Below, in pieces: positions 1 to 30,064 of a stretch of DNA of 30,064 nucleotides; position 1 is the stretch's first letter; each line of letters starts with the position of its first letter. The notes below the pieces were generated by a model. That model had not been told where the DNA came from. It made no database searches and was given only the letters and a program-made list of their open reading frames with translations. A program made the position numbers and the translations under genes. Source of the stretch: a virus; IMG/VR virus record IMGVR_UViG_3300029309_000230, positions 1-30,064 of that record. One strand, given 5' to 3'.

Positions 1-782
<782 letters not shown>

Positions 783-12883: not shown

Positions 12884-13243
12884 ATGACAAAACCAATTTA
12901 TGCCAACGAACAGCATAAACAAATTATAAAGCACTACCTAACTATATGTGATGATTTTGTAAAAGAAGTTAGCACCCCTACAAAATATAAAACATATAAT
13001 GAGGTACTAAATACAATTATACAATACCATAACAATTATGGCAAAGGTGCTAAAGAAAACAATTATTGGGATTGGCTTATGATAATACCAATTAATGTAA
13101 CTGTTATGACACAAGGCTATTTTGCTGGCATAGAAACCAAAAGTAAAAGGGCTGTTATAAATGCCTACAAAGTAGTATTACAAGAAATTTTAGAGCAAAC
13201 GGTTGATAAGATAGAAAACCTAGAACCTGTTATAGATGAATGA
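12884..13243 (+). CDS. Protein of unknown function, first gene of the second operon
   Basis: 119 residues, mainly helical, no Cys pairs and no membrane segment. The start is fixed by the promoter directly upstream (5 bases). It overlaps the sigma-like gene by 8 bases. Being the first, probably leaderless gene of the operon and coupled to a sigma-like protein, a regulatory role is possible, but no family is recognised. Confidence 0.65.
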   Translation: MTKPIYANEQHKQIIKHYLTICDDFVKEVSTPTKYKTYNEVLNTIIQYHNNYGKGAKENNYWDWLMIIPINVTVMTQGYFAGIETKSKRAVINAYKVVLQEILEQTVDKIENLEPVIDE

Positions 13244-13826
13244 TATATATATAGAAATATCAAAATTACATGGCAAGTTTAAAAAGATAGCTAGTAGGAA
13301 TACAAATGATGTAAACGAAATAGATGAAAGTGTACAAGAATTATACTTGTACTTTTTACAAATGAACCAAGACCTACTTAAAAAGATTTATACAAATGAT
13401 GGTTTAACTGGTGTAATTAAGTTTGGGACAATAATATTAAATAGAAGTTTAACAAGTAAAACTAGCCCATATTATTATAAATACAAAAAATACTATACAC
13501 ATATTGACAGCACTTGTTTTGTTACTACTAAAACTGCTAACTTACATTATAGCCAAGATAATTATTATAATAATAAGAGTGTTGAAAATATGCCAGAAGA
13601 TAAAACAAAAGGCATGTGGGAGAAACTAGAAAGCATTGACAAGGTGCTAGATAATTGCCACTGGTACGATAAGAAATTGTTTGAGTTATATTATTATGAA
13701 AGCAATACACTAGACAGTTTAGCGAAAAAAACTAAAATAAGTAGGAATAGTATATATACAACTATAGATAAGGTAAGGACAATAATAAAAGATAAAATAC
13801 ATGAAAAAGAGAAGGAAGAACACTAA
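13236..13826 (+). CDS. Sigma factor-like protein
   Basis: 196 residues. The N-terminal half (about 10-90) resembles a divergent sigma region 2: a helix with Asp-Glu-x-Val-Gln-Glu-Leu-Tyr-Leu-Tyr and a following Ile-x-Leu-Asn-Arg helix. The C-terminal 55 residues fit region 4: Trp-Tyr-Asp-Lys-Lys-Leu-Phe-Glu-Leu-Tyr-Tyr, then Ser-Leu-Ala-Lys-Lys-Thr-x-Ile-Ser-Arg-Asn-Ser-Ile-Tyr as the helix-turn-helix. The linker is unusually rich in Tyr and Asn. It may direct host RNA polymerase to late promoters. An alternative is a plain HTH regulator. Placed just before the late terminase cluster. Confidence 0.6.
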   Translation: MNDIYIEISKLHGKFKKIASRNTNDVNEIDESVQELYLYFLQMNQDLLKKIYTNDGLTGVIKFGTIILNRSLTSKTSPYYYKYKKYYTHIDSTCFVTTKTANLHYSQDNYYNNKSVENMPEDKTKGMWEKLESIDKVLDNCHWYDKKLFELYYYESNTLDSLAKKTKISRNSIYTTIDKVRTIIKDKIHEKEKEEH

Positions 13827-13920
13827 ATATTATGACCCAGTAAAGAACAATACATGGGTAATGATGTTCGGTTTTGAAATGCCTAAAACTATGACATACA
13901 GAAGATTGTGGACTAAATGA
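13801..13920 (+). CDS. 39-residue basic protein
   Basis: Starts inside the end of the sigma-like gene (26-base overlap) and ends with an ATGA overlap with the next gene. It is basic at both ends, with a Met/Phe-rich centre and the end Met-Thr-Tyr-Arg-Arg-Leu-Trp-Thr-Lys. The precise coupling at the 3' end supports translation. No family is known to me. Confidence 0.5.
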   Translation: MKKRRKNTKYYDPVKNNTWVMMFGFEMPKTMTYRRLWTK

Positions 13921-14315
13921 TGAAATTTTTTGTCCCAGATTATATATACCAAGAGAGGATAGCTATTTGTAAAGCGTGTGATTATTACTTTAGCTTAACA
14001 GGTTCATGTAAGGTATGTGGCTGTTTTATGAAAGTCAAGTCACGACTTGCACCGATGGGCTGCCCTAAAGGGTACTGGGAAAAAACAACTAAAATAGAAA
14101 CCCCAGATGAACTGCCTAAAGAGATAATTGAAGCTGTTAAAAATGTATGGCCTGATATAAAAACAGGTAAGGCTAAAGATGTTAGTGCAAAGAAAAGAAT
14201 GATAGAGCTTTATAATACAATACATGGTACTAGCTATAGTTATGGTACTAACTGCGGCTCATGTTTAAGTTCATGCTTTGAGGGCTTAAAAAGAATATAT
14301 AATAAATACAAATAA
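13917..14315 (+). CDS. Zinc-ribbon protein (DUF6171-like)
   Basis: 132 residues. Cys18, Cys21, Cys31, Cys34, Cys36 and Cys49-Pro form a zinc-binding cluster (Cys-x-x-Cys, then Cys-x-x-Cys-x-Cys, then Gly-Cys-Pro). This matches small Cys-rich proteins of Bacteroidota phages often labelled DUF6171. The C-terminal half contains a helix and a second Cys group (Asn-Cys-Gly-Ser-Cys-x-x-x-Cys-Phe). No enzymatic motif; nucleic acid or protein binding is likely. Confidence 0.65.
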   Translation: MMKFFVPDYIYQERIAICKACDYYFSLTGSCKVCGCFMKVKSRLAPMGCPKGYWEKTTKIETPDELPKEIIEAVKNVWPDIKTGKAKDVSAKKRMIELYNTIHGTSYSYGTNCGSCLSSCFEGLKRIYNKYK

Positions 14316-14318
14316 ACT

Positions 14319-14462
14319 ATGATAGAATTTACATTTTTTTGTTTAGGTATTATAATTATGGTTATGTTTATTATGGCTATGATATTAGATTACAAACTTA
14401 AACAACACGAAAAAAAAGAATTTTACGAAAATTTAAAAAGACATGACAAAACTAGATTATAA
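14319..14462 (+). CDS. 47-residue membrane protein
   Basis: A single membrane helix close to the N-terminus (residues 4-23, rich in Ile, Met and Phe) followed by a charged helical tail. It begins 3 bases after the zinc-ribbon gene and overlaps the DUF3310 gene by 20 bases. It is below usual length limits, but the hydrophobic-then-charged layout and spacing support a real product. Function unknown. Confidence 0.5.
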   Translation: MIEFTFFCLGIIIMVMFIMAMILDYKLKQHEKKEFYENLKRHDKTRL

Positions 14463-14703
14463 AAAAAATACCCAACCTCATTACTATATAGGTGGTATAC
14501 ATGGCTATTCAGCTAAAGATATTGTAGATGATTTTAACTTGAACCCATGGACTGCTCAGGCTGTACAATATATATTAAGGGCAGGCAAAAAAGAAGGTAA
14601 TACAACTGAGCAAGATATACAAAAGGCTATTAATGTTTTACACTTTGAGTTAGATAAGCTACACAAAGAAGGTCAAACAAAAACAGGGGGCTTAGCAAAA
14701 TGA
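14443..14703 (+). CDS. DUF3310 family protein
   Basis: 86 residues with the pattern His-Tyr-Tyr-x-x-Gly near the start, then Trp-x-x-x-x-Val-Gln-Tyr-Ile-Leu-Arg-Ala-Gly-Lys-Lys and Asp-Ile-x-Lys-Ala-Ile-x-x-Leu-x-Phe-Glu-Leu, the hallmark of DUF3310. Phage members are sometimes called nucleotide kinases without direct proof and are related to MazG-like all-helical proteins. Role in nucleotide metabolism is only likely. The stop overlaps the next start (ATGA). Confidence 0.8.
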   Translation: MTKLDYKKNTQPHYYIGGIHGYSAKDIVDDFNLNPWTAQAVQYILRAGKKEGNTTEQDIQKAINVLHFELDKLHKEGQTKTGGLAK

Positions 14704-14960
14704 CATTATATAAATGTGAATGCTGTAAAGAGCAAAAAGAAATAGCTAAAGCAACCATAGTGTTAAGGGGTAATAAGTGGGTATGTAAGGAAGCTGTATG
14801 CAGCTGTGGTAAATTTATGGATAGTGAACCTACTGATGGTATACCAAACCTTAAAAGAACTGAAGCTAGTTTAAGCATGAAAAAGAAAGGTGATGGGCTT
14901 TGGAAAAGTGCTAAGGAAAAGATTATAGGTGAAAGAGGTATAAACGAAAATTTTAATTAA
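14700..14960 (+). CDS. Small Cys-rich zinc-binding protein
   Basis: 86 residues. Cys6, Cys8, Cys9, Cys29, Cys34 and Cys36-Gly form a probable zinc ribbon in the first 40 residues, followed by Met-Asp-x-x-Pro and Gly-Ile-Pro-x-x-Lys-Arg-Thr-Glu. Similar short proteins occur in Bacteroidota phages, with no assigned function. It ends one base before the ParB-like gene, so it may belong functionally to that group. Confidence 0.6.
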   Translation: MTLYKCECCKEQKEIAKATIVLRGNKWVCKEAVCSCGKFMDSEPTDGIPNLKRTEASLSMKKKGDGLWKSAKEKIIGERGINENFN

Positions 14961-14961
14961 C

Positions 14962-15540
14962 ATGAAGCAAAAAGTAAAATTATACAAAATAAAGGGTAAC
15001 CCACTTAACCCTAGAATTATAAAAGATGCTAAGTTTAAAAAACTAGTAGCATCAATTAAAGAATTCCCAGAAATGTTAAAGCTTAGGCCTATAATTGTAG
15101 ATGAGAACATGATGATACTTGGTGGTAACATGCGCTGGAAAGCTAGCAAAGATGCTGGCCTAAAAGAAGTATGGATAGATACAGCTGAAAACTTTACGCA
15201 ATACCAAAAAGATATGTTTATAGTAAAAGACAATGTTAACTTTGGTGACTGGGATTGGGATATATTAGCTAACCAATGGGATAACGGTAACCTTAATGAA
15301 TGGGGTATGGACGTATGGCAGCCAGAAGAAGATGTTAGTAATATAACAGACTATAGCATGAATACTGTAGATGAAAAACTAGATAGGTTTTTAGATGCAA
15401 AGATTAAGAATATAACTATACCTTTTGAAACAGAAGAATTTAATAATGTAGTTACAAAGCTTGAAGTTATTATGAACAAGTATGGCTGTAAAGATTACAG
15501 GGAATTAATATATAAAGTTATAGAAAATGAAAAAGTATAA
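14962..15540 (+). CDS. Stand-alone ParB-like nuclease/partner protein
   Basis: 192 residues. Residues 8-75 form a ParB N-terminal (ParB/sulfiredoxin-fold) domain: Asn-Pro-Arg (16-18), Ile-x-Val-Asp-x-x-Met-x-Ile-Leu-Gly-Gly-Asn-Met-Arg (45-58) and the following Ala and Gly. After it comes Phe-Ile-Val-Lys-Asp-Asn-Val-x-Phe-Gly-x-Trp-Asp-Trp (86-99), which I know from ParB-methyltransferase fusions of phages. Here the methyltransferase domain is missing and the protein ends with a short helical tail. The gene overlaps the oxygenase gene by 14 bases. The ParB domain may direct the neighbour enzyme to DNA or act as a small kinase/CTPase. Confidence 0.75.
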   Translation: MKQKVKLYKIKGNPLNPRIIKDAKFKKLVASIKEFPEMLKLRPIIVDENMMILGGNMRWKASKDAGLKEVWIDTAENFTQYQKDMFIVKDNVNFGDWDWDILANQWDNGNLNEWGMDVWQPEEDVSNITDYSMNTVDEKLDRFLDAKIKNITIPFETEEFNNVVTKLEVIMNKYGCKDYRELIYKVIENEKV

Positions 15541-16360
15541 GCTTACTAAATATAAAGATAATAAAGATTTAATTAAAACTACACCAAAAGAAGAACACTT
15601 TGATACTGTAATAAAAGAAGATACTGCATTTTATTTAGATGGCGAGTGTATTGGTATTTATGTTAACATAGACAAAAAACTTTTAAGTTATGTAAGGGAA
15701 TGTGTAAAAGATACTAAGTATGTAGAAACTTACCGTACTAATGCATTGCCAACTAAAAGTAGTGTATTTGGTGCTTTGCCCCGTGTAGCATTAAGAAATG
15801 ACTTTTGCAGGTTTAGCAATAAAACAATAGAAGAAAAACAAAACTTCAATAAACTGTTTACATTCCAGAATACATTATGTGAAATATATAAAAAGTATTT
15901 GCCAGAACTTTATAATTACGATTTAAGCAAAGCTAGAGAATTAATTGATGATGACTATAGGTTAGTAGATACACCTTACACTACAGCAAATATAAACGTT
16001 AACCATGCTATTAAATACCATACTGATAGTGGTAATATTAAAGGTAGCTTTAGTAACGTGCTTATACTTAAAGAATACTGTACTGGTGGTGAGCTTGTTT
16101 TACCAGATTATAGGATAGCTTTAGAACAATCAGATGGCGCTTTGTGTATATTTAGGGGGCAGGAAGAAATACATGGTGTTATGCCTTTAAAGCCTTACAA
16201 AGAAAACTTTTATAGGGCTAGTATTGTATACTATACCTTAGCCCAGTTACATCACTGCTACCCTTACAAAGAAGAAGTAACAAGGCTAAACATTAAAAAA
16301 AGAGAACGTGCAGTTAAAAGAAGTAATAACATAGACCCACGGATAAATGGAACAAAATAG
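15527..16360 (+). CDS. 2-oxoglutarate/Fe(II) dioxygenase, TET/JBP-like
   Basis: 277 residues. Iron ligands His165-x-Asp167 (in Tyr-His-Thr-Asp-Ser-Gly-Asn) and His216 (Glu-Ile-His-Gly-Val) and the 2-oxoglutarate-binding Arg230 are visible, with Gly-Gly-Glu-Leu-x-Leu-Pro (187-193) and the strand Asp-Gly-Ala-Leu-x-Ile-Phe-Arg before the last His. The spacing resembles JBP1 (His189, Asp191, His239, Arg255 as I remember it), and the preceding Asn-x-Asn-x-Ala pattern also fits the TET/JBP family, which oxidises the methyl group of thymine or 5-methylcytosine in DNA. The fold is certain enough; the substrate is inferred. The gene sits between the ParB-like and terminase genes, with overlaps on both sides. 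Confidence 0.7.
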   Translation: MKKYKLTKYKDNKDLIKTTPKEEHFDTVIKEDTAFYLDGECIGIYVNIDKKLLSYVRECVKDTKYVETYRTNALPTKSSVFGALPRVALRNDFCRFSNKTIEEKQNFNKLFTFQNTLCEIYKKYLPELYNYDLSKARELIDDDYRLVDTPYTTANINVNHAIKYHTDSGNIKGSFSNVLILKEYCTGGELVLPDYRIALEQSDGALCIFRGQEEIHGVMPLKPYKENFYRASIVYYTLAQLHHCYPYKEEVTRLNIKKRERAVKRSNNIDPRINGTK

Positions 16361-16694
16361 AACAAAGATTAACAAGGAAAGAATGCTAAAAGCTTTAGAA
16401 GCTAGCTTAGGTGTTGTAACTACAGCTTTAAAAAAAACAGAACTATCAAGGACTAACTTTTATAAATGGTTAAAAGAAGATGAGGACTTTGCACAAAAGG
16501 TAAAAGAAATTGATAATATATCTAAAGATTTTATTAAAAGTAAATACTTTGAATGTATTAGTGACAAAGTACCTTCAGTTGTTTTACATGCTGCCAGAAA
16601 CCACTTAGGCTGGAACGAAACAAAAAAAGTAGATTTAACTTCTGGTGAAAACCCTTTTAAAGTAAATGTAAATATCAAAGGAATTGAACATTAA
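16347..16694 (+). CDS. terS: Terminase small subunit
   Basis: 115 residues. An N-terminal helix-turn-helix (Met-Leu-x-Ala-Leu-Glu-Ala-Ser-Leu-Gly-Val-Val, then Leu-Ser-Arg-Thr-Asn-Phe-Tyr-Lys-Trp-Leu) is followed by an oligomerisation helix and the segment Val-Leu-His-Ala-Ala-Arg-Asn-His-Leu-Gly-Trp, typical of small terminases in this group. It recognises the packaging start on phage DNA and feeds it to the large subunit. It overlaps the oxygenase gene by 14 bases and the large terminase gene by 11. Confidence 0.85.
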   Translation: MEQNRTKINKERMLKALEASLGVVTTALKKTELSRTNFYKWLKEDEDFAQKVKEIDNISKDFIKSKYFECISDKVPSVVLHAARNHLGWNETKKVDLTSGENPFKVNVNIKGIEH

Positions 16695-17994
16695 CCCTGT
16701 ATTTACTGATAGACAACAACTAGCGATAGAGTATTTATTTGATAAAAATACTAAAGAGGTTTTGTTTGGTGGTGCAGCTGGTGGTGGTAAATCATGGGTA
16801 GGGTGCGCATGGTTATTATTGTTATGCATGAAATACCCTAGTACAAGGTACTTGATGGGTAGGAGTAAACTAGATGCCTTAAAGAAAACTACACTTAATA
16901 CATTCTTTGAGGTTTGTAATGCATGGAAAATAAAATCAGGTGAACACTTTACATTCAATGCATCAAGTAACATTATTACTTTTATAAATGGCTCAGAAAT
17001 AATACTTAAAGATTTATTTTTATACCCAAGTGATAGGAACTTTGATAGCTTAGGTTCACTTGAAATAACAGCTGCCTTTATAGATGAAGCAAACCAAATA
17101 ACAGAAAAAGCCAAAAACGTTGTAGCCAGTAGGCTTAGGTATAAGCTTGATGAAAACAATTTAATACCTAAGATGCTTATGACTTGTAACCCAGCAAAGA
17201 ACTGGGTATATACAGAATACTATAGGCCAGCAAAAGATAATACAATAAAACCATACAGAAAGTTTATACAAAGTTTAGTTGGTGATAATGAATATATATC
17301 TAAACATTATGAAAAACAGCTATTTGAATTAGATGAACTAAGTAAACAAAGGCTGCTATTTGGGAACTGGGAATACGATGCAACACATGATAGCTTAATA
17401 GATTATGATGCTATACTAAATTTATTTAACCAAAAGGGCATAGATGGTGACAAGTATATATCTTGTGATGTGGCACGTTTTGGGAACGATAAGACAGTTA
17501 TTATGTTATGGCAAGGCTTACATGTCATGTATGTAAAAACGTTGCTTAAAAGCGCTGTAAATGATGTTGTTGATGAAGTTAAAAAACTACAACAAGAAAA
17601 CGCTGTCCCGCTTAGAAATATAATAGTTGATAGTGATGGTGTAGGTGGTGGTGTTACTGACTACTTACGTTGCCAATCATTTGTAAATAATGCTAAGCCA
17701 CTTAAAGGTGAAAATTACCAAAATTTAAAAACGCAATGTTATTACAAGTTAGCTGATTTAATTAACAAAGCCCAAGTGGGCATAAGGTGTAGTGATGTAA
17801 ATGTAAAAAACTATATGATAGAAGAACTTGAACAGGTAAGAACAAAAGATGCTGACAAAGATAACAGGTTGCAAATAATACCAAAAGACAACGTAAAAGC
17901 TATATTAGGTAGGTCGCCAGATTATGCTGATGCTTTAGCTATGCGCATGTATTATGAGATAGATGCTAATTATGGTAAATACTTTGTACAGTAA
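16684..17994 (+). CDS. terL: Terminase large subunit
   Basis: 436 residues. The ATPase part shows Walker A Gly-Gly-Ala-Ala-Gly-Gly-Gly-Lys-Ser (29-37), Walker B Ala-Phe-Ile-Asp-Glu-Ala (131-136) and the coupling motif Thr-Cys-Asn-Pro (167-170). The nuclease part shows Asp262 (Cys-Asp-Val-Ala-Arg-Phe-Gly), Asp316 and Asp318 (Val-Asp-Ser-Asp-Gly-Val-Gly) and Asp413/Asp416 (Ser-Pro-Asp-Tyr-Ala-Asp-Ala). It is complete. The start must be the TTG at 16684, because the first in-frame ATG lies after Walker A; the overlap with the small subunit stop supports coupling. This enzyme translocates DNA into the procapsid and cuts it. Confidence 0.95.
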   Translation: MNINPVFTDRQQLAIEYLFDKNTKEVLFGGAAGGGKSWVGCAWLLLLCMKYPSTRYLMGRSKLDALKKTTLNTFFEVCNAWKIKSGEHFTFNASSNIITFINGSEIILKDLFLYPSDRNFDSLGSLEITAAFIDEANQITEKAKNVVASRLRYKLDENNLIPKMLMTCNPAKNWVYTEYYRPAKDNTIKPYRKFIQSLVGDNEYISKHYEKQLFELDELSKQRLLFGNWEYDATHDSLIDYDAILNLFNQKGIDGDKYISCDVARFGNDKTVIMLWQGLHVMYVKTLLKSAVNDVVDEVKKLQQENAVPLRNIIVDSDGVGGGVTDYLRCQSFVNNAKPLKGENYQNLKTQCYYKLADLINKAQVGIRCSDVNVKNYMIEELEQVRTKDADKDNRLQIIPKDNVKAILGRSPDYADALAMRMYYEIDANYGKYFVQ

Positions 17995-17996
17995 AA

Positions 17997-18021
17997 GGGG
18001 GCTACTTGATTAAGCGCCCCC
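17997..18021 (+). terminator. GC-rich hairpin after the terminase gene
   Basis: GGGGGC (17997-18002) pairs with GCCCCC (18016-18021) around a 13-base loop, three bases after the terL stop. Only a short T group follows, so it is an imperfect intrinsic terminator, but in this A/T-rich genome such a stem is conspicuous. It separates the terminase operon from the tail operon. Confidence 0.6.
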
Positions 18022-18086
18022 AGTTTACGACAAGAGAAATGATTGAAAAAAATGAAATGAGGGACAAATATAAGACAATAAACTAA
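18006..18086 (+). CDS. Possible 26-residue peptide
   Basis: A TTG start inside the hairpin loop opens a short frame whose charged, protein-like product (ending MRDKYKTIN) is unlike random translation of A/T-rich DNA. No other evidence; translation would interfere with the hairpin. Confidence 0.2.
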   Translation: MIKRPQFTTREMIEKNEMRDKYKTIN

Positions 18087-18111
18087 AAAAACAATTTTTA
18101 TATAATATAAT

Positions 18112-18753
18112 ATGCAAGTAACTATAAATAAAGAAGGTAAGGAAAACAAGTTTACATTAATAAACAGTTGGCAAGATGTAACACTAGAAACTTATGCTGA
18201 GTTAATTAAATATAAAAAGAAGAGCAATACAGATGAAGCTTATACCCTTATAAATAGTATGAGTGATATACCAAGAAAGTTTGTTCAATCATTAAGTTTA
18301 AAAGATGTTACTGAGTTACTATCTAACATGGCTAACTTACAAGTGATAGAAGATAGTGGGTTAAAAGGTATAATAAGGGTTGGTAAAAAAAATTATGGCT
18401 TTCACCCAAACCTAGATGAAATAACTATGGGTGAGTATGCAGATTTAGAACACTTTATAGAAGATGGCTATATAAACCACTTACCAGAAATAATGGCTGT
18501 ACTTTATAGGCCAGTTGTAAGTAGAGATGGTGACAATTATACTATTGAAGCTTATGATGGTAATATAGAAGAAAGGGCAAAGTTATTTAGGAACATGAGG
18601 GCTAGTGAAGTGCAAAATGCGCTGGTTTTTTTTTGGGATTTCGGCAGCGAGTTATTACTGACTTTGCAATCGTATTTGATGAAAACCAAACTGATGAAAA
18701 AAGAATTAAATTCAATGGCGACTTTGCCAACAAGTGGGGCTGGTTTGGAGTGA
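18112..18753 (+). CDS. Tail assembly chaperone G-like
   Basis: 213 residues, starting after an A/T-rich leader. It has a beta-rich N-terminus and a mainly helical core with Leu-Glu-x-Tyr-Ala-Glu-Leu, Thr-Met-Gly-Glu-Tyr-Ala-Asp-Leu and, near the end, the block Ala-Leu-Val-Phe-Phe-Trp-Asp-Phe-Gly. In siphoviruses the G protein coats the tape measure during tail assembly. Codons 172-174 lie on a run of nine T (18626-18634), where a -1 shift joins it to the downstream T domain. Without shifting, translation adds 39 residues and stops at 18753. Confidence 0.75.
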   Translation: MQVTINKEGKENKFTLINSWQDVTLETYAELIKYKKKSNTDEAYTLINSMSDIPRKFVQSLSLKDVTELLSNMANLQVIEDSGLKGIIRVGKKNYGFHPNLDEITMGEYADLEHFIEDGYINHLPEIMAVLYRPVVSRDGDNYTIEAYDGNIEERAKLFRNMRASEVQNALVFFWDFGSELLLTLQSYLMKTKLMKKELNSMATLPTSGAGLE

Positions 18754-18884
18754 TGTATAGATTGACAGATGGTAAGATAGTTAATTTGCAAAAGGTAGCA
18801 AAGTTAGAATTATTAGAGTGTTTAACATGGTTAAGCTATGAAACTGATTTAGAAGAACAAAATAAAGTACAAATAAATGGTTAA
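18112..18884 (+). CDS. Tail assembly chaperone GT fusion by -1 frameshift
   Basis: Slippage by one base backwards on T9 (18626-18634) leads into the frame ending at 18884, giving about 257 residues. The downstream part has no ATG at its beginning (first in-frame ATG 18753) and continues with Lys-Trp-Gly-Trp-Phe-Gly-Val-Met-Tyr-Arg-Leu and Leu-Glu-Cys-Leu-Thr-Trp-Leu-Ser-Tyr-Glu, typical of T domains of these chaperones. The slippery heptamer T TTT TTT fits the X-XXY-YYZ rule. The arrangement G, shift, T directly upstream of tail genes is a conserved feature of long-tailed phages. Confidence 0.8.
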
Positions 18885-19425
18885 TAACAAAACATATAAT
18901 AATGTAGTAAATACTATACTAAGGATAGGTGAATTCCATGAACAAATATTTACAACATCAGTTGGTGATATTTGGCAAATAGATATGGATAAGGATACTA
19001 AATTTCCTTTAATGCATATTACACCTACAGCTGTTAGTACTGGTGATAGTGAGTTGGTTTATAACTTTCAGGTATTTATTATGGATATGGTAAGTGAGGA
19101 TAAGAACTGGACTAAGAATAATGAAAATGCAAACTTTACTAAATTAGTAAAACAACTTAACAACGAACAAGATGTGTTTAATGAGTGTTTACAGATAGCT
19201 ACAGATTTGATAGGTATACTAAGGCATTCAGAAAGGCAAAGCTTATCTGGTGTAAATGATATTAACAACCCTTTATATTTTACAGATGGCCAGTTTAGTA
19301 TAGAACCATTTCAGGAAAGGTTTGACAATTTATGCGCTGGCTGGGTTTTTAATGTTAATGTAGTAGTACAAAATGATTTCCAAACATGTAATATCCCAGT
19401 AACCCAAGAGGGGGCTGGTTACTAA
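18877..19425 (+). CDS. Tail terminator-like or tail completion protein
   Basis: 182 residues, overlapping the T frame by 8 bases. Mixed alpha/beta with a C-terminal pattern Phe-Asn-Asn/Asp-Leu-Cys-Ala-Gly-Trp-x-Phe-x-Val-x-Val, then Asp-Phe-x-x-Cys-x-Ile-Pro, recurrent in tail modules of Bacteroidota phages. Small proteins with this size and fold usually cap the tail tube or complete the head-tail joint. The assignment is by context and overall pattern only. Confidence 0.5.
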   Translation: MVNNKTYNNVVNTILRIGEFHEQIFTTSVGDIWQIDMDKDTKFPLMHITPTAVSTGDSELVYNFQVFIMDMVSEDKNWTKNNENANFTKLVKQLNNEQDVFNECLQIATDLIGILRHSERQSLSGVNDINNPLYFTDGQFSIEPFQERFDNLCAGWVFNVNVVVQNDFQTCNIPVTQEGAGY

Positions 19426-28714: not shown

Positions 28715-29431
28715 ATGCCTTGCAAAAAATGTGAAAACGGAAACTTTAAGTTCGGTAATACTGGTAAATGTAAGTATAAAACCAAAGCTGAATGTGAAGC
28801 TGATAACAAAGACTACTACGAAGATTTGAACGAAACTAAAATAGTTGAACTAGTTATCAATGATGAAAATGAAAGCCTTGCTATAGATGCGATAAGTCTA
28901 GTTACTGCACCAGCTATCGAACAAGACTTTGTATACTTTAACAAATCAAAAAACAACCTTACGTTAGCTAAAATAGATGAAGAAAAAAGAATGGTGGTAT
29001 CACCAGCCCTTATACCAAACAAGCAAATCTATAGGTATGATGCGCAAACAGATAGTGACTACTATGTTTACTTTAGCCCTGAAACTGTCAGGAAAGCTAG
29101 TGAGTTGTACTTAAAACATAATAACCACCATAAAGCTACTTACCAACACCAAGATAGGGTAAGTGGTGTACTAACAGTTGAAAGCTGGGTTAAGGAAGGT
29201 GATATGGATAAAAGTAAACTTTACGGATTTGACCTACCTAATGGCACTTGGTTTGTAAAGATGCGTATAGACAATGATGAGTTATGGCAAAAAATAAAAG
29301 AGGGTGAGTTGAAAGGTTTAAGTATCGAAGGCTACTTTACTAATCGTTTTGAAGCTATGCAGGAAAAACAAGAACCAACAAATGAAGAAATACTAAAAGC
29401 TTTGAACGAAATAATCAAAGAAATCAAATAA
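28715..29431 (+). CDS. XkdF-like prohead protease
   Basis: 238 residues. The N-terminus has a Cys group (Cys3, Cys6, Cys19, Cys27) and a charged segment. The core (45-210) contains Ile-Ser-Leu-Val-Thr-Ala-Pro-Ala-Ile, Val-Ser-Pro-Ala-Leu-Ile-Pro, Gln-His-Gln-Asp (His145) and Leu-Lys-Gly-Leu-Ser-Ile-Glu-Gly-Tyr-Phe (Ser203), matching the XkdF-like putative serine proteases of phage heads; His145 and Ser203 are likely catalytic. It degrades scaffold during capsid maturation. It lies directly upstream of the scaffold gene at the contig end and, on the circular map, of the scaffold at 51. The last four codons are also present at the left end. Confidence 0.8.
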   Translation: MPCKKCENGNFKFGNTGKCKYKTKAECEADNKDYYEDLNETKIVELVINDENESLAIDAISLVTAPAIEQDFVYFNKSKNNLTLAKIDEEKRMVVSPALIPNKQIYRYDAQTDSDYYVYFSPETVRKASELYLKHNNHHKATYQHQDRVSGVLTVESWVKEGDMDKSKLYGFDLPNGTWFVKMRIDNDELWQKIKEGELKGLSIEGYFTNRFEAMQEKQEPTNEEILKALNEIIKEIK

Positions 29432-30064
29432 ATAACTAACTAATATATATATTAAAAAAAAGAACCTATGGATTTAAAAGAACAAATTTTAGTAGCCTTA
29501 GGACTTAACAAAGAAGAAAAAACTAAGTTAGGTTGGCAGGGCAAGTCTGAAGATGGTACAATGTTTGTATCTACAGCAGAAGAGTTAGAAGCTGGTGTAG
29601 ATATATCTGTATTGACTGAAGATGGCAGTACAATATTATTACCTACAGGCAATTATTCTACTGATGAATTAAGTTTTACTGTAGAAACTGAAGGTGTAGT
29701 AAAAGAAGTTATGCGTAAAAAGAAAGAAGAAGAGGAAGAGGAAGAAGAAGAAGATAAGAAAAAAGAAGAAATGACAGCAGATGAAGCTTATGAAAAAGCT
29801 GAGTTTGAAGATAAAGATGATGAAGAAGATAAAGATAAGCGTAAGTATGCTGAGGAATTTCCTGAAACACCAGCTGAAAAAGCTGACTGGGCAAAAACTT
29901 ATGAAGAGATGAAAGATAAGGTTAAGAACCTAGAAGATGCTGTAGCTGATATTAAAGCTAGAATAGGTGAAACTGGTGATAAGGAAACAATGAGTGAGGA
30001 ATTAAAAGAAGAAAAAACAGAATTATCTTTAGAAGAATTAAAAGAAGAAAACATTAAGTTAAAA
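29418..30064. repeat. Right copy of the divergent terminal repeat
   Basis: Matches 1-647 as described for the left copy. It ends with the window, inside the scaffold gene. Confidence 0.85.
29468..30064 (+). CDS. Scaffold protein, second divergent copy (partial, cut by the window end)
   Basis: 199 codons, open to the end of the window. The protein is almost identical to residues 1-199 of the gene at 51 (changes such as Glu18 to Lys, Asn to Thr near 79, one Glu fewer in the run and one more in the following Asp/Glu segment). Most nucleotide changes are synonymous, so both copies are under selection. It is the same gene from another strain or a duplicate, not a separate function. Confidence 0.8.
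   Translation, partial: MDLKEQILVALGLNKEEKTKLGWQGKSEDGTMFVSTAEELEAGVDISVLTEDGSTILLPTGNYSTDELSFTVETEGVVKEVMRKKKEEEEEEEEEDKKKEEMTADEAYEKAEFEDKDDEEDKDKRKYAEEFPETPAEKADWAKTYEEMKDKVKNLEDAVADIKARIGETGDKETMSEELKEEKTELSLEELKEENIKLK

Follow-up and report, generated by a model that had tools for sequence, protein, structure and literature searches.

A ParB-like protein and a TET/JBP-family oxygenase as a candidate DNA-base-oxidation module in a swappable pre-terminase slot of a small marine phage

The ParB–TET locus

The stretch analysed here (hereafter the window) is the whole 30,064-base virus contig of record IMGVR_UViG_3300029309_000230, which derives from a small marine phage. At positions 14,962 to 17,994 it carries a ParB-like gene followed by a gene for a TET/JBP-family oxygenase, which are the subject of this work, and by two terminase genes. 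A preliminary description, made from the letters alone, had placed four overlapping genes in this region, and the corresponding open reading frames (ORFs) were all found there, with successive overlaps of 14, 14 and 11 nucleotides between ParB, TET, the small terminase and the large terminase:

14962..15540, plus strand: ParB-like protein, 192 amino acids (Pfam ParB_N; PHROG 498/940/620; model matches to the ParB CTPase fold)
15527..16360, plus strand: TET/JBP-family 2-oxoglutarate/Fe(II) oxygenase, 277 amino acids (Pfam PF12851; AlphaFold2 and Foldseek)
16347..16694, plus strand: small terminase (TerS) candidate, 115 amino acids (weak: PHROG 4044, E=6e-5, plus position)
16684..17994, plus strand: large terminase (TerL), 436 amino acids, TTG start (Pfam Terminase_3, E=1e-16)

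The second gene encodes a genuine TET/JBP-family oxygenase

The product of 15527–16360 matched Tet_JBP (PF12851) with E=7e-17 and 61.6 bits, against a curated cut-off of 34.9, and its family profile retrieved TET2 and CMD1 from the PDB and gave weak matches to NgTet1 and CcTet there. Structural comparison of its AlphaFold2 model (predicted local distance difference test score 81.6; low near residues 87–92, 169–171 and 243–248) by Foldseek revealed that the 26 best PDB matches were exclusively chains of CMD1, CcTet, TET2 and NgTet1, followed by FTO and AlkB enzymes. The fold search thus ruled out a prolyl hydroxylase or another non-nucleic-acid oxygenase, the outcome that the preliminary description had set against its own TET/JBP assignment, and the protein is a genuine member of this family by profile, ligands and fold. 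The four catalytic residues proposed earlier are likewise in place, and all are invariant among the 87 homologs aligned:

16019..16027, plus strand: iron ligands His165-x-Asp167, invariant in 87/87 homologs
16172..16174, plus strand: iron ligand His216, invariant in 87/87 homologs
16214..16216, plus strand: 2-oxoglutarate-binding Arg230, invariant in 87/87 homologs and aligned with the equivalent Arg in TET2 and NgTet1
16238..16240, plus strand: Leu238, at the aligned position of the 5-methylcytosine (5mC)-contacting His of TET2 and NgTet1

The fold and the HxD...H...R arrangement are shared with the eukaryotic enzymes TET2, NgTet1, CMD1 and CcTet, and the Ser at R+2, Val at R+4 and Tyr at R+6 (counted from Arg230) are shared with TET2. 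Unlike the eukaryotic TETs, the window enzyme is only 277 residues long and has Leu238 at R+8, where TET2 and NgTet1 have a His that contacts 5mC in the published structures. Of the 87 homologs, 85 hold Leu, Met, Ile or Pro in this column and two hold Arg; none has a His. The TETs of Pelagibacter phage HTVC112P (L090; L numbers label individual records) and of DLP_6 (L092) combine Asp at D+3 with Arg at R+8 and form a second pocket type, while the other TETs have Asn at D+3 and mostly Leu at R+8. The DLP_6 enzyme is annotated as an 'SNF2 DNA repair protein', and the TETs of several phages (L087, L089, L192 and L193) as 'queuine tRNA-ribosyltransferase', a label that looks wrong.

ParB and TET are inherited as a unit beside exchangeable terminases

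Among 2.9 million viral contigs scanned, 80 TET homologs with 51–89% identity were found. In all 77 contigs with upstream sequence (window counted), a ParB gene lay directly upstream of TET, and in most of them the 14-nucleotide overlap was the same. The downstream TerL behaved otherwise: it was similar to that of the window in 13 of 57 contigs and different in 44, and in eight of the differing contigs that were examined, a TerL of the Terminase_3 or Terminase_6 kind occupied the same place. Since 44/57 TET contigs carry another TerL, the link to the terminase is positional only, and the terminase was ruled out as a fixed TET partner; the unit consists of ParB and TET, with the terminase as a constant neighbour that is not co-inherited. 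The earlier proposal that the pair is coupled to the terminase genes therefore stands as regards overlap and order and fails as regards inheritance.

The order ParB, oxygenase, terminase, whose conservation in related phages the preliminary description had put forward as a check, proved to be widely conserved. ParB–TET pairs near a terminase were also found in cultured phages of Rhodococcus, Mycobacterium, Gordonia, Microbacterium, Arthrobacter (one type), Prochlorococcus and Pelagibacter, at roughly 24–30% identity and with ParB adjacent to or near TET. The ParB of Prochlorococcus phage MED4-117 is annotated as a 'DNA methylase', which looks wrong.

One ParB N-domain precedes different DNA-modifying enzymes at the same slot

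Relatives collected through the window's TerL and ParB shared the gene order that flanks a variable slot, which lies between TerS and the following upstream gene:

14700..14960, plus strand: 86-amino-acid gene, upstream edge of the variable slot, conserved there in relatives with TET and in those without

Among 80 TerL relatives, 17 carried in this slot a ParB with a window-type N-domain, partnered by a TAGT glycosyltransferase (9), a fused N6/N4 methylase (3; L146, L168 and L169), a 310-amino-acid protein (3), Mom (1) or an ABC-ATPase-GNAT protein (1), where the partner classes come from Pfam on representatives and otherwise from length and position. Most of the remaining TerL relatives had no ParB and a 127-amino-acid gene instead. 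No TET was found in 28 records with a non-TET partner in the slot, and no TAGT above the cut-off in the TET records searched. More distant ParB relatives precede a DpdA-like enzyme (L102), a radical SAM protein (L107) and a PAPS-reductase-like protein (L109); the latter pair, at L109:3140-4917, is reminiscent of Dnd/Ibr pairs.

The preliminary description had noted a resemblance of ParB to the front part of ParB-methyltransferase fusions, and such fusions indeed occupy the slot in sister phages. Its further idea, that a separate oxygenase had replaced the methylase domain, holds in that the ParB tail and TET stand at the methylase's place; it does not hold as a simple replacement, since TAGT, Mom and ABC-GNAT units stand at that place as well. 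As one N-domain occurs with other tails and other enzymes in sister phages, ParB would act as an adaptor at a swappable slot; this suggests that ParB serves chemical DNA camouflage as an interchangeable adaptor.

The 310-amino-acid slot protein (L127:4736-5665, L135:4736-5665 and L137:3651-4580) had no Pfam or PHROG match when that of L127 was searched, and its position makes it a candidate for a new DNA-modifying enzyme. The ParB–TAGT genomes L098-L100, L093, L111, L140 and L159 have no TET gene, and L098 and L100 additionally carry a nucleotide-sugar epimerase.

The ParB tail tracks the TET enzyme

The ParB-like protein consists of a ParB/Srx-fold N-domain and a helical tail and has no helix-turn-helix (HTH) part:

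14962..15315, plus strand: ParB N-domain, residues 1-118, common to ParBs of other partner enzymes
15325..15537, plus strand: C-terminal tail of ParB, residues 122-192, putative docking element for TET (identity tracks TET; profile matches)

Its Pfam ParB_N match (E=1.8e-5, 25.1 bits) is slightly below the curated cut-off of 26.3, and its model matched the CTPase-fold structures 7bnr, 7bnk and 6sdk over about 100 residues, in the N-domain only. Canonical ParABS ParBs have a parS-binding HTH domain and a ParA partner; the window's ParB lacks both, as Pfam scans of the window's ORFs returned no ParA and no ParB HTH family. The P motif reads GGNMR (G55xxR58), and its nucleotide-binding Arg, R58, is invariant among the aligned TET-linked ParBs.

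In 73 ParB–TET pairs, the identity of ParB residues 124–190 tracked TET identity with a Spearman coefficient of 0.88, whereas N-domain identity hardly did so (0.22), although such pairwise identities are non-independent data. Within the window's lineage, no ParB with another partner enzyme matched a TET-type tail profile, although the N-domain profile matched these proteins at E 1e-44 to 1e-61. In profile–profile comparison, the tail matched the tails encoded by 13 ParB genes that accompany TET in actino-, cyano- and pelagiphages, with 92% probability and E 6e-7 when trimmed round the shared motif and 88% and E 3e-6 untrimmed; a reversed profile gave 0.1%. The tail of the radical-SAM-linked ParB scored in between (21%). 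The tail is thus missing from non-TET ParBs and recurs in those linked to TET in other phyla (Mann-Whitney p=0.001); the comparison sets for the other partner enzymes comprised 1-4 sequences. Given these small sets and the non-independence of the identities, the contrast is strong yet carries no formal probability.

In support of a partnership between tail and enzyme, the ParBs of L002, L013, L015 and L079 have the N-domain of another ParB type and retain the TET-type tail. The N-domain of L002 is of the type found in the methylase fusion L169, and in L013:7300-7920 and L079:849-1442 a very different N-domain carries the TET-type tail, that of L013 being without the GxxR arginine. The simplest reading of these patterns is that the tail may be a docking element matched to its own enzyme, so that partner-specific docking tails would sit on a shared ParB platform.

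Accessory enzymes

The preliminary description saw no methyltransferase or hydroxymethylase in the genome, and our searches bear this out: hidden Markov model searches of the window found no DNA_methylase (PF00145, C5), N6_N4_Mtase or Thymidylat_synt match, and Pfam scans of its ORFs found no methylase or thymidylate-synthase-like family. A search of the window for TAGT and Pfam scans of its ORFs for glycosyltransferases were empty, and no amino-acid:DNA transferase (ADDT) or aGPT-Pplase was among the Pfam matches. The PF18751 5-hydroxymethyluracil (5hmU)-DNA kinase is absent from the window genome and from 19 related TET contigs; it occurs next to or near TET in 8 of 13 cultured ParB–TET phages. 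The Rhodococcus phage Tonitrus also carries ADDT, and the authors of its genome put forward thymidine hypermodification as the possible function, reading one of the genes as a 5hmU DNA kinase (PMC11955845).

In Mycobacterium phage KayaCho (L192), gene 3 at 1802-2377 is annotated as a small terminase and scores 367 bits against the PF18751 kinase, so that the label is a probable misannotation. An FkbM-type methyltransferase gene lies beside TET in HTVC112P (L090:7527-8222) and in MED4-117 (L089:6192-6890), and its product might methylate the new hydroxymethyl group.

Genome context

The two ends of the record overlap, and a prohead protease gene lies at one end with a scaffold gene at the other:

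1..647, plus strand: left end, repeat of 29418-30064 (647 bases, 93.7% identity over 650 columns), a wrap-around of the circularly permuted genome

The overlapping ends and the opposite placement of protease and scaffold make it probable that the record spans an entire circularly permuted genome of about 29.4 kb. In Pfam scans, its remaining ORFs are replication, recombination and virion genes. Searches for RNA elements and tRNAs found none, and promoter and terminator scans of 13000-19000 gave no excess over chance. By its large terminase, the nearest isolates are Flavobacterium phage 11b and Cellulophaga phage phi10:1, which infect Flavobacteriia; 84,980 bacterial and archaeal genomes, scanned twice, revealed no prophage relative, and the host is therefore indicated by these isolates only.

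A proposed ParB–TET module and its alternatives

Taking the family, fold and catalytic residues of the enzyme together with the gene order, the exchange of enzymes and the co-inheritance of tail and TET, we see roughly even chances that ParB and TET form one DNA-base-oxidation module in which ParB is the adaptor and thymine to 5hmU is the most likely conversion. By analogy with their families, the N-domain, a nucleotide-binding clamp-like fold, would engage phage DNA, and TET would hydroxylate a pyrimidine methyl group in the finished DNA, most likely turning thymine into 5hmU. The tail of about 70 residues would dock the enzyme. As the module is made with the terminase genes, it would probably act late in infection, on DNA that has been replicated and is about to be, or is being, packaged, and the oxidised DNA may be shielded from host nucleases; sister phages would use the same N-domain with other tails and other enzymes. 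The broader proposal, which we hold a little less firmly and at somewhat short of an even chance, is that ParBs in phage modification operons could be a general plug-in platform, with a single N-domain that engages DNA and exchangeable tails matched to TET, TAGT, Mom, ABC-GNAT, a methylase and perhaps DpdA, so that DNA chemistry would be changed by swapping a tail-plus-enzyme unit in a fixed pre-terminase slot.

Several observations weigh against the module, besides the non-independent identities mentioned above, and some of them lend substance to other explanations. Since the tail-coding end of parB adjoins tet, linkage alone yields some correlation and could account for their co-inheritance. 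ParB and TET might then be mere neighbours in a mobile cassette, making no contact, with ParB nicking DNA, as ParB/Srx proteins can according to work cited in PMC12839542, or serving in regulation or as a packaging aid. We regard this as rather unlikely, because tail relatives were recovered from TET-linked ParBs of unrelated phages, because near-identical N-domains with other enzymes have unrelated tails, and because L002, L013 and L079 kept the combination of tail and TET through an exchange of the N-domain. ParB could otherwise be a nucleoside triphosphate-driven helper for catalysis on duplex DNA, a role compatible with docking. Such a role has been proposed for DpdB: PMC12839542 describes this ParB-like ATPase as the driver of the dPreQ0 insertion that DpdA carries out. 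The DpdA-like gene after ParB in L102 and the conserved R58 fit such a helper; a helper role alone does not explain partner-specific tails, however, and DpdB is dispensable in some clusters (PMC12839542). L013-type N-domains still carry the TET tail without the P-motif Arg, so nucleotide-driven loading is not general, which counts against the helper, which we judge unlikely, and against our own mechanism alike.

As regards the substrate, TET could oxidise 5mC laid down by the host or by an occasional phage C5 methylase. The solved relatives TET2, NgTet1 and CMD1 act on 5mC, and 5mC activity of other phage TETs has been published (Burke et al. 2021, as cited in PMC12730594). A C5 methylase is present in 6/47 TET records and, at L059:9868-11716, a full C5 cytosine methylase overlaps TET by a few nucleotides, the only such pairing seen. 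Set against this, 11/48 relatives that lack TET have a C5 methylase too, so that the gene is no more frequent alongside TET, and 0/13 cultured ParB–TET phages carry one; for want of enrichment, the C5 methylase was dropped as a tracking partner of TET. With Leu in place of the 5mC-contacting His as well, we assign the 5mC explanation a low probability. The same three considerations, with the linked kinase and ADDT of relatives added and with neither a C5 methylase nor a thymidylate-synthase-like enzyme found in the window, make thymine the favoured candidate substrate. A further alternative, that the enzyme acts on N6-methyladenine (6mA), RNA or free nucleotides and not on pyrimidine methyls of phage DNA, draws on CcTet, which is among the best fold matches and was crystallised with 6mA and 5mC duplexes, and on the AlkB/FTO enzymes next in the fold ranking; the thymidine-modification kinase and ADDT linked in relatives, together with a ParB and terminase context that indicates DNA, render it highly improbable. 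Within the thymine reading, TET is followed in the window by neither a kinase nor ADDT nor TAGT, so its product would remain plain 5hmU unless other genes complete it, and plain 5hmU at some thymines would be a modest shield.

Comparison with known systems

The window enzyme belongs to the same Pfam family as the thymine hydroxylases JBP1 and JBP2 (base J) and may perform the same reaction; at this family-level comparison, it differs in having neither a second domain nor a linked glucosyltransferase. Burke et al. 2021 reportedly described a phage TET with a C5 methylase and glycosyltransferases; Tet_JBP is shared, whereas the window has a ParB partner instead of methylase and glycosyltransferase. 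In KayaCho and its cluster B relatives, genes 1-4 are ParB, TET, one further gene and TerL, with no C5 methylase; unlike in the window, the third gene is a PF18751 kinase. The closest described counterpart is that of Tonitrus, which has ParB-like, Tet-like, aGPT-Pplase2/ADDT and 5hmU DNA kinase genes (PMC11955845). Tonitrus likewise has the ParB-like gene and a TET homolog (30% identity) near the terminase, and thymidine oxidation was proposed for it; unlike Tonitrus, the window lacks both the kinase and the amino-acid transferase, and it differs in host phylum and terminase.

Phage ParB-N6/N4 methylase fusions (PMC12704722, PMC12783734) share the N-domain and the slot but, unlike the window, have the enzyme fused and no TET-type tail. 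A 2025 survey of the ParB fold described phage fusions to methylases, a requirement of the P-motif Arg for nucleotide binding, and differences in nucleotide binding among ParB homologs (PMC12704722). As in the window, DpdA-DpdB and Dnd pair a ParB-like NTPase with a modifier of DNA bases or backbone (PMC12839542), and DpdB with DpdA is a precedent for a ParB-like helper of a base-modifying enzyme (PMC12839542); they are host defence systems with other chemistry.

Implications

Phage TETs are already known, and ParB–TET has already been proposed as a thymidine-modification unit for Tonitrus. In the literature readable to us, we found no account of a fixed slot in which one N-domain serves many enzymes through an enzyme-matched tail; the swappable slot and matched tail appear to be undescribed so far, with priority uncertain. 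A December 2025 study of ParB domains beside a new cytosine-modifying enzyme or near DNA methylases stated that their role 'remains unknown' (PMC12783734), and slot swapping with partner-matched tails offers a concrete, testable answer, namely that of an adaptor. If the adaptor reading is right, it would explain how phages change their DNA chemistry in one recombination step, make new DNA-modifying enzymes findable by their place after ParB, and mark KayaCho, HTVC112P and MED4-117 as cultured phages where a viral TET's oxidation of thymine could be measured now. If the plug-in platform holds more generally, further slot genes, such as that for the 310-amino-acid protein of L127, L135 and L137, would be new DNA-modifying enzymes.

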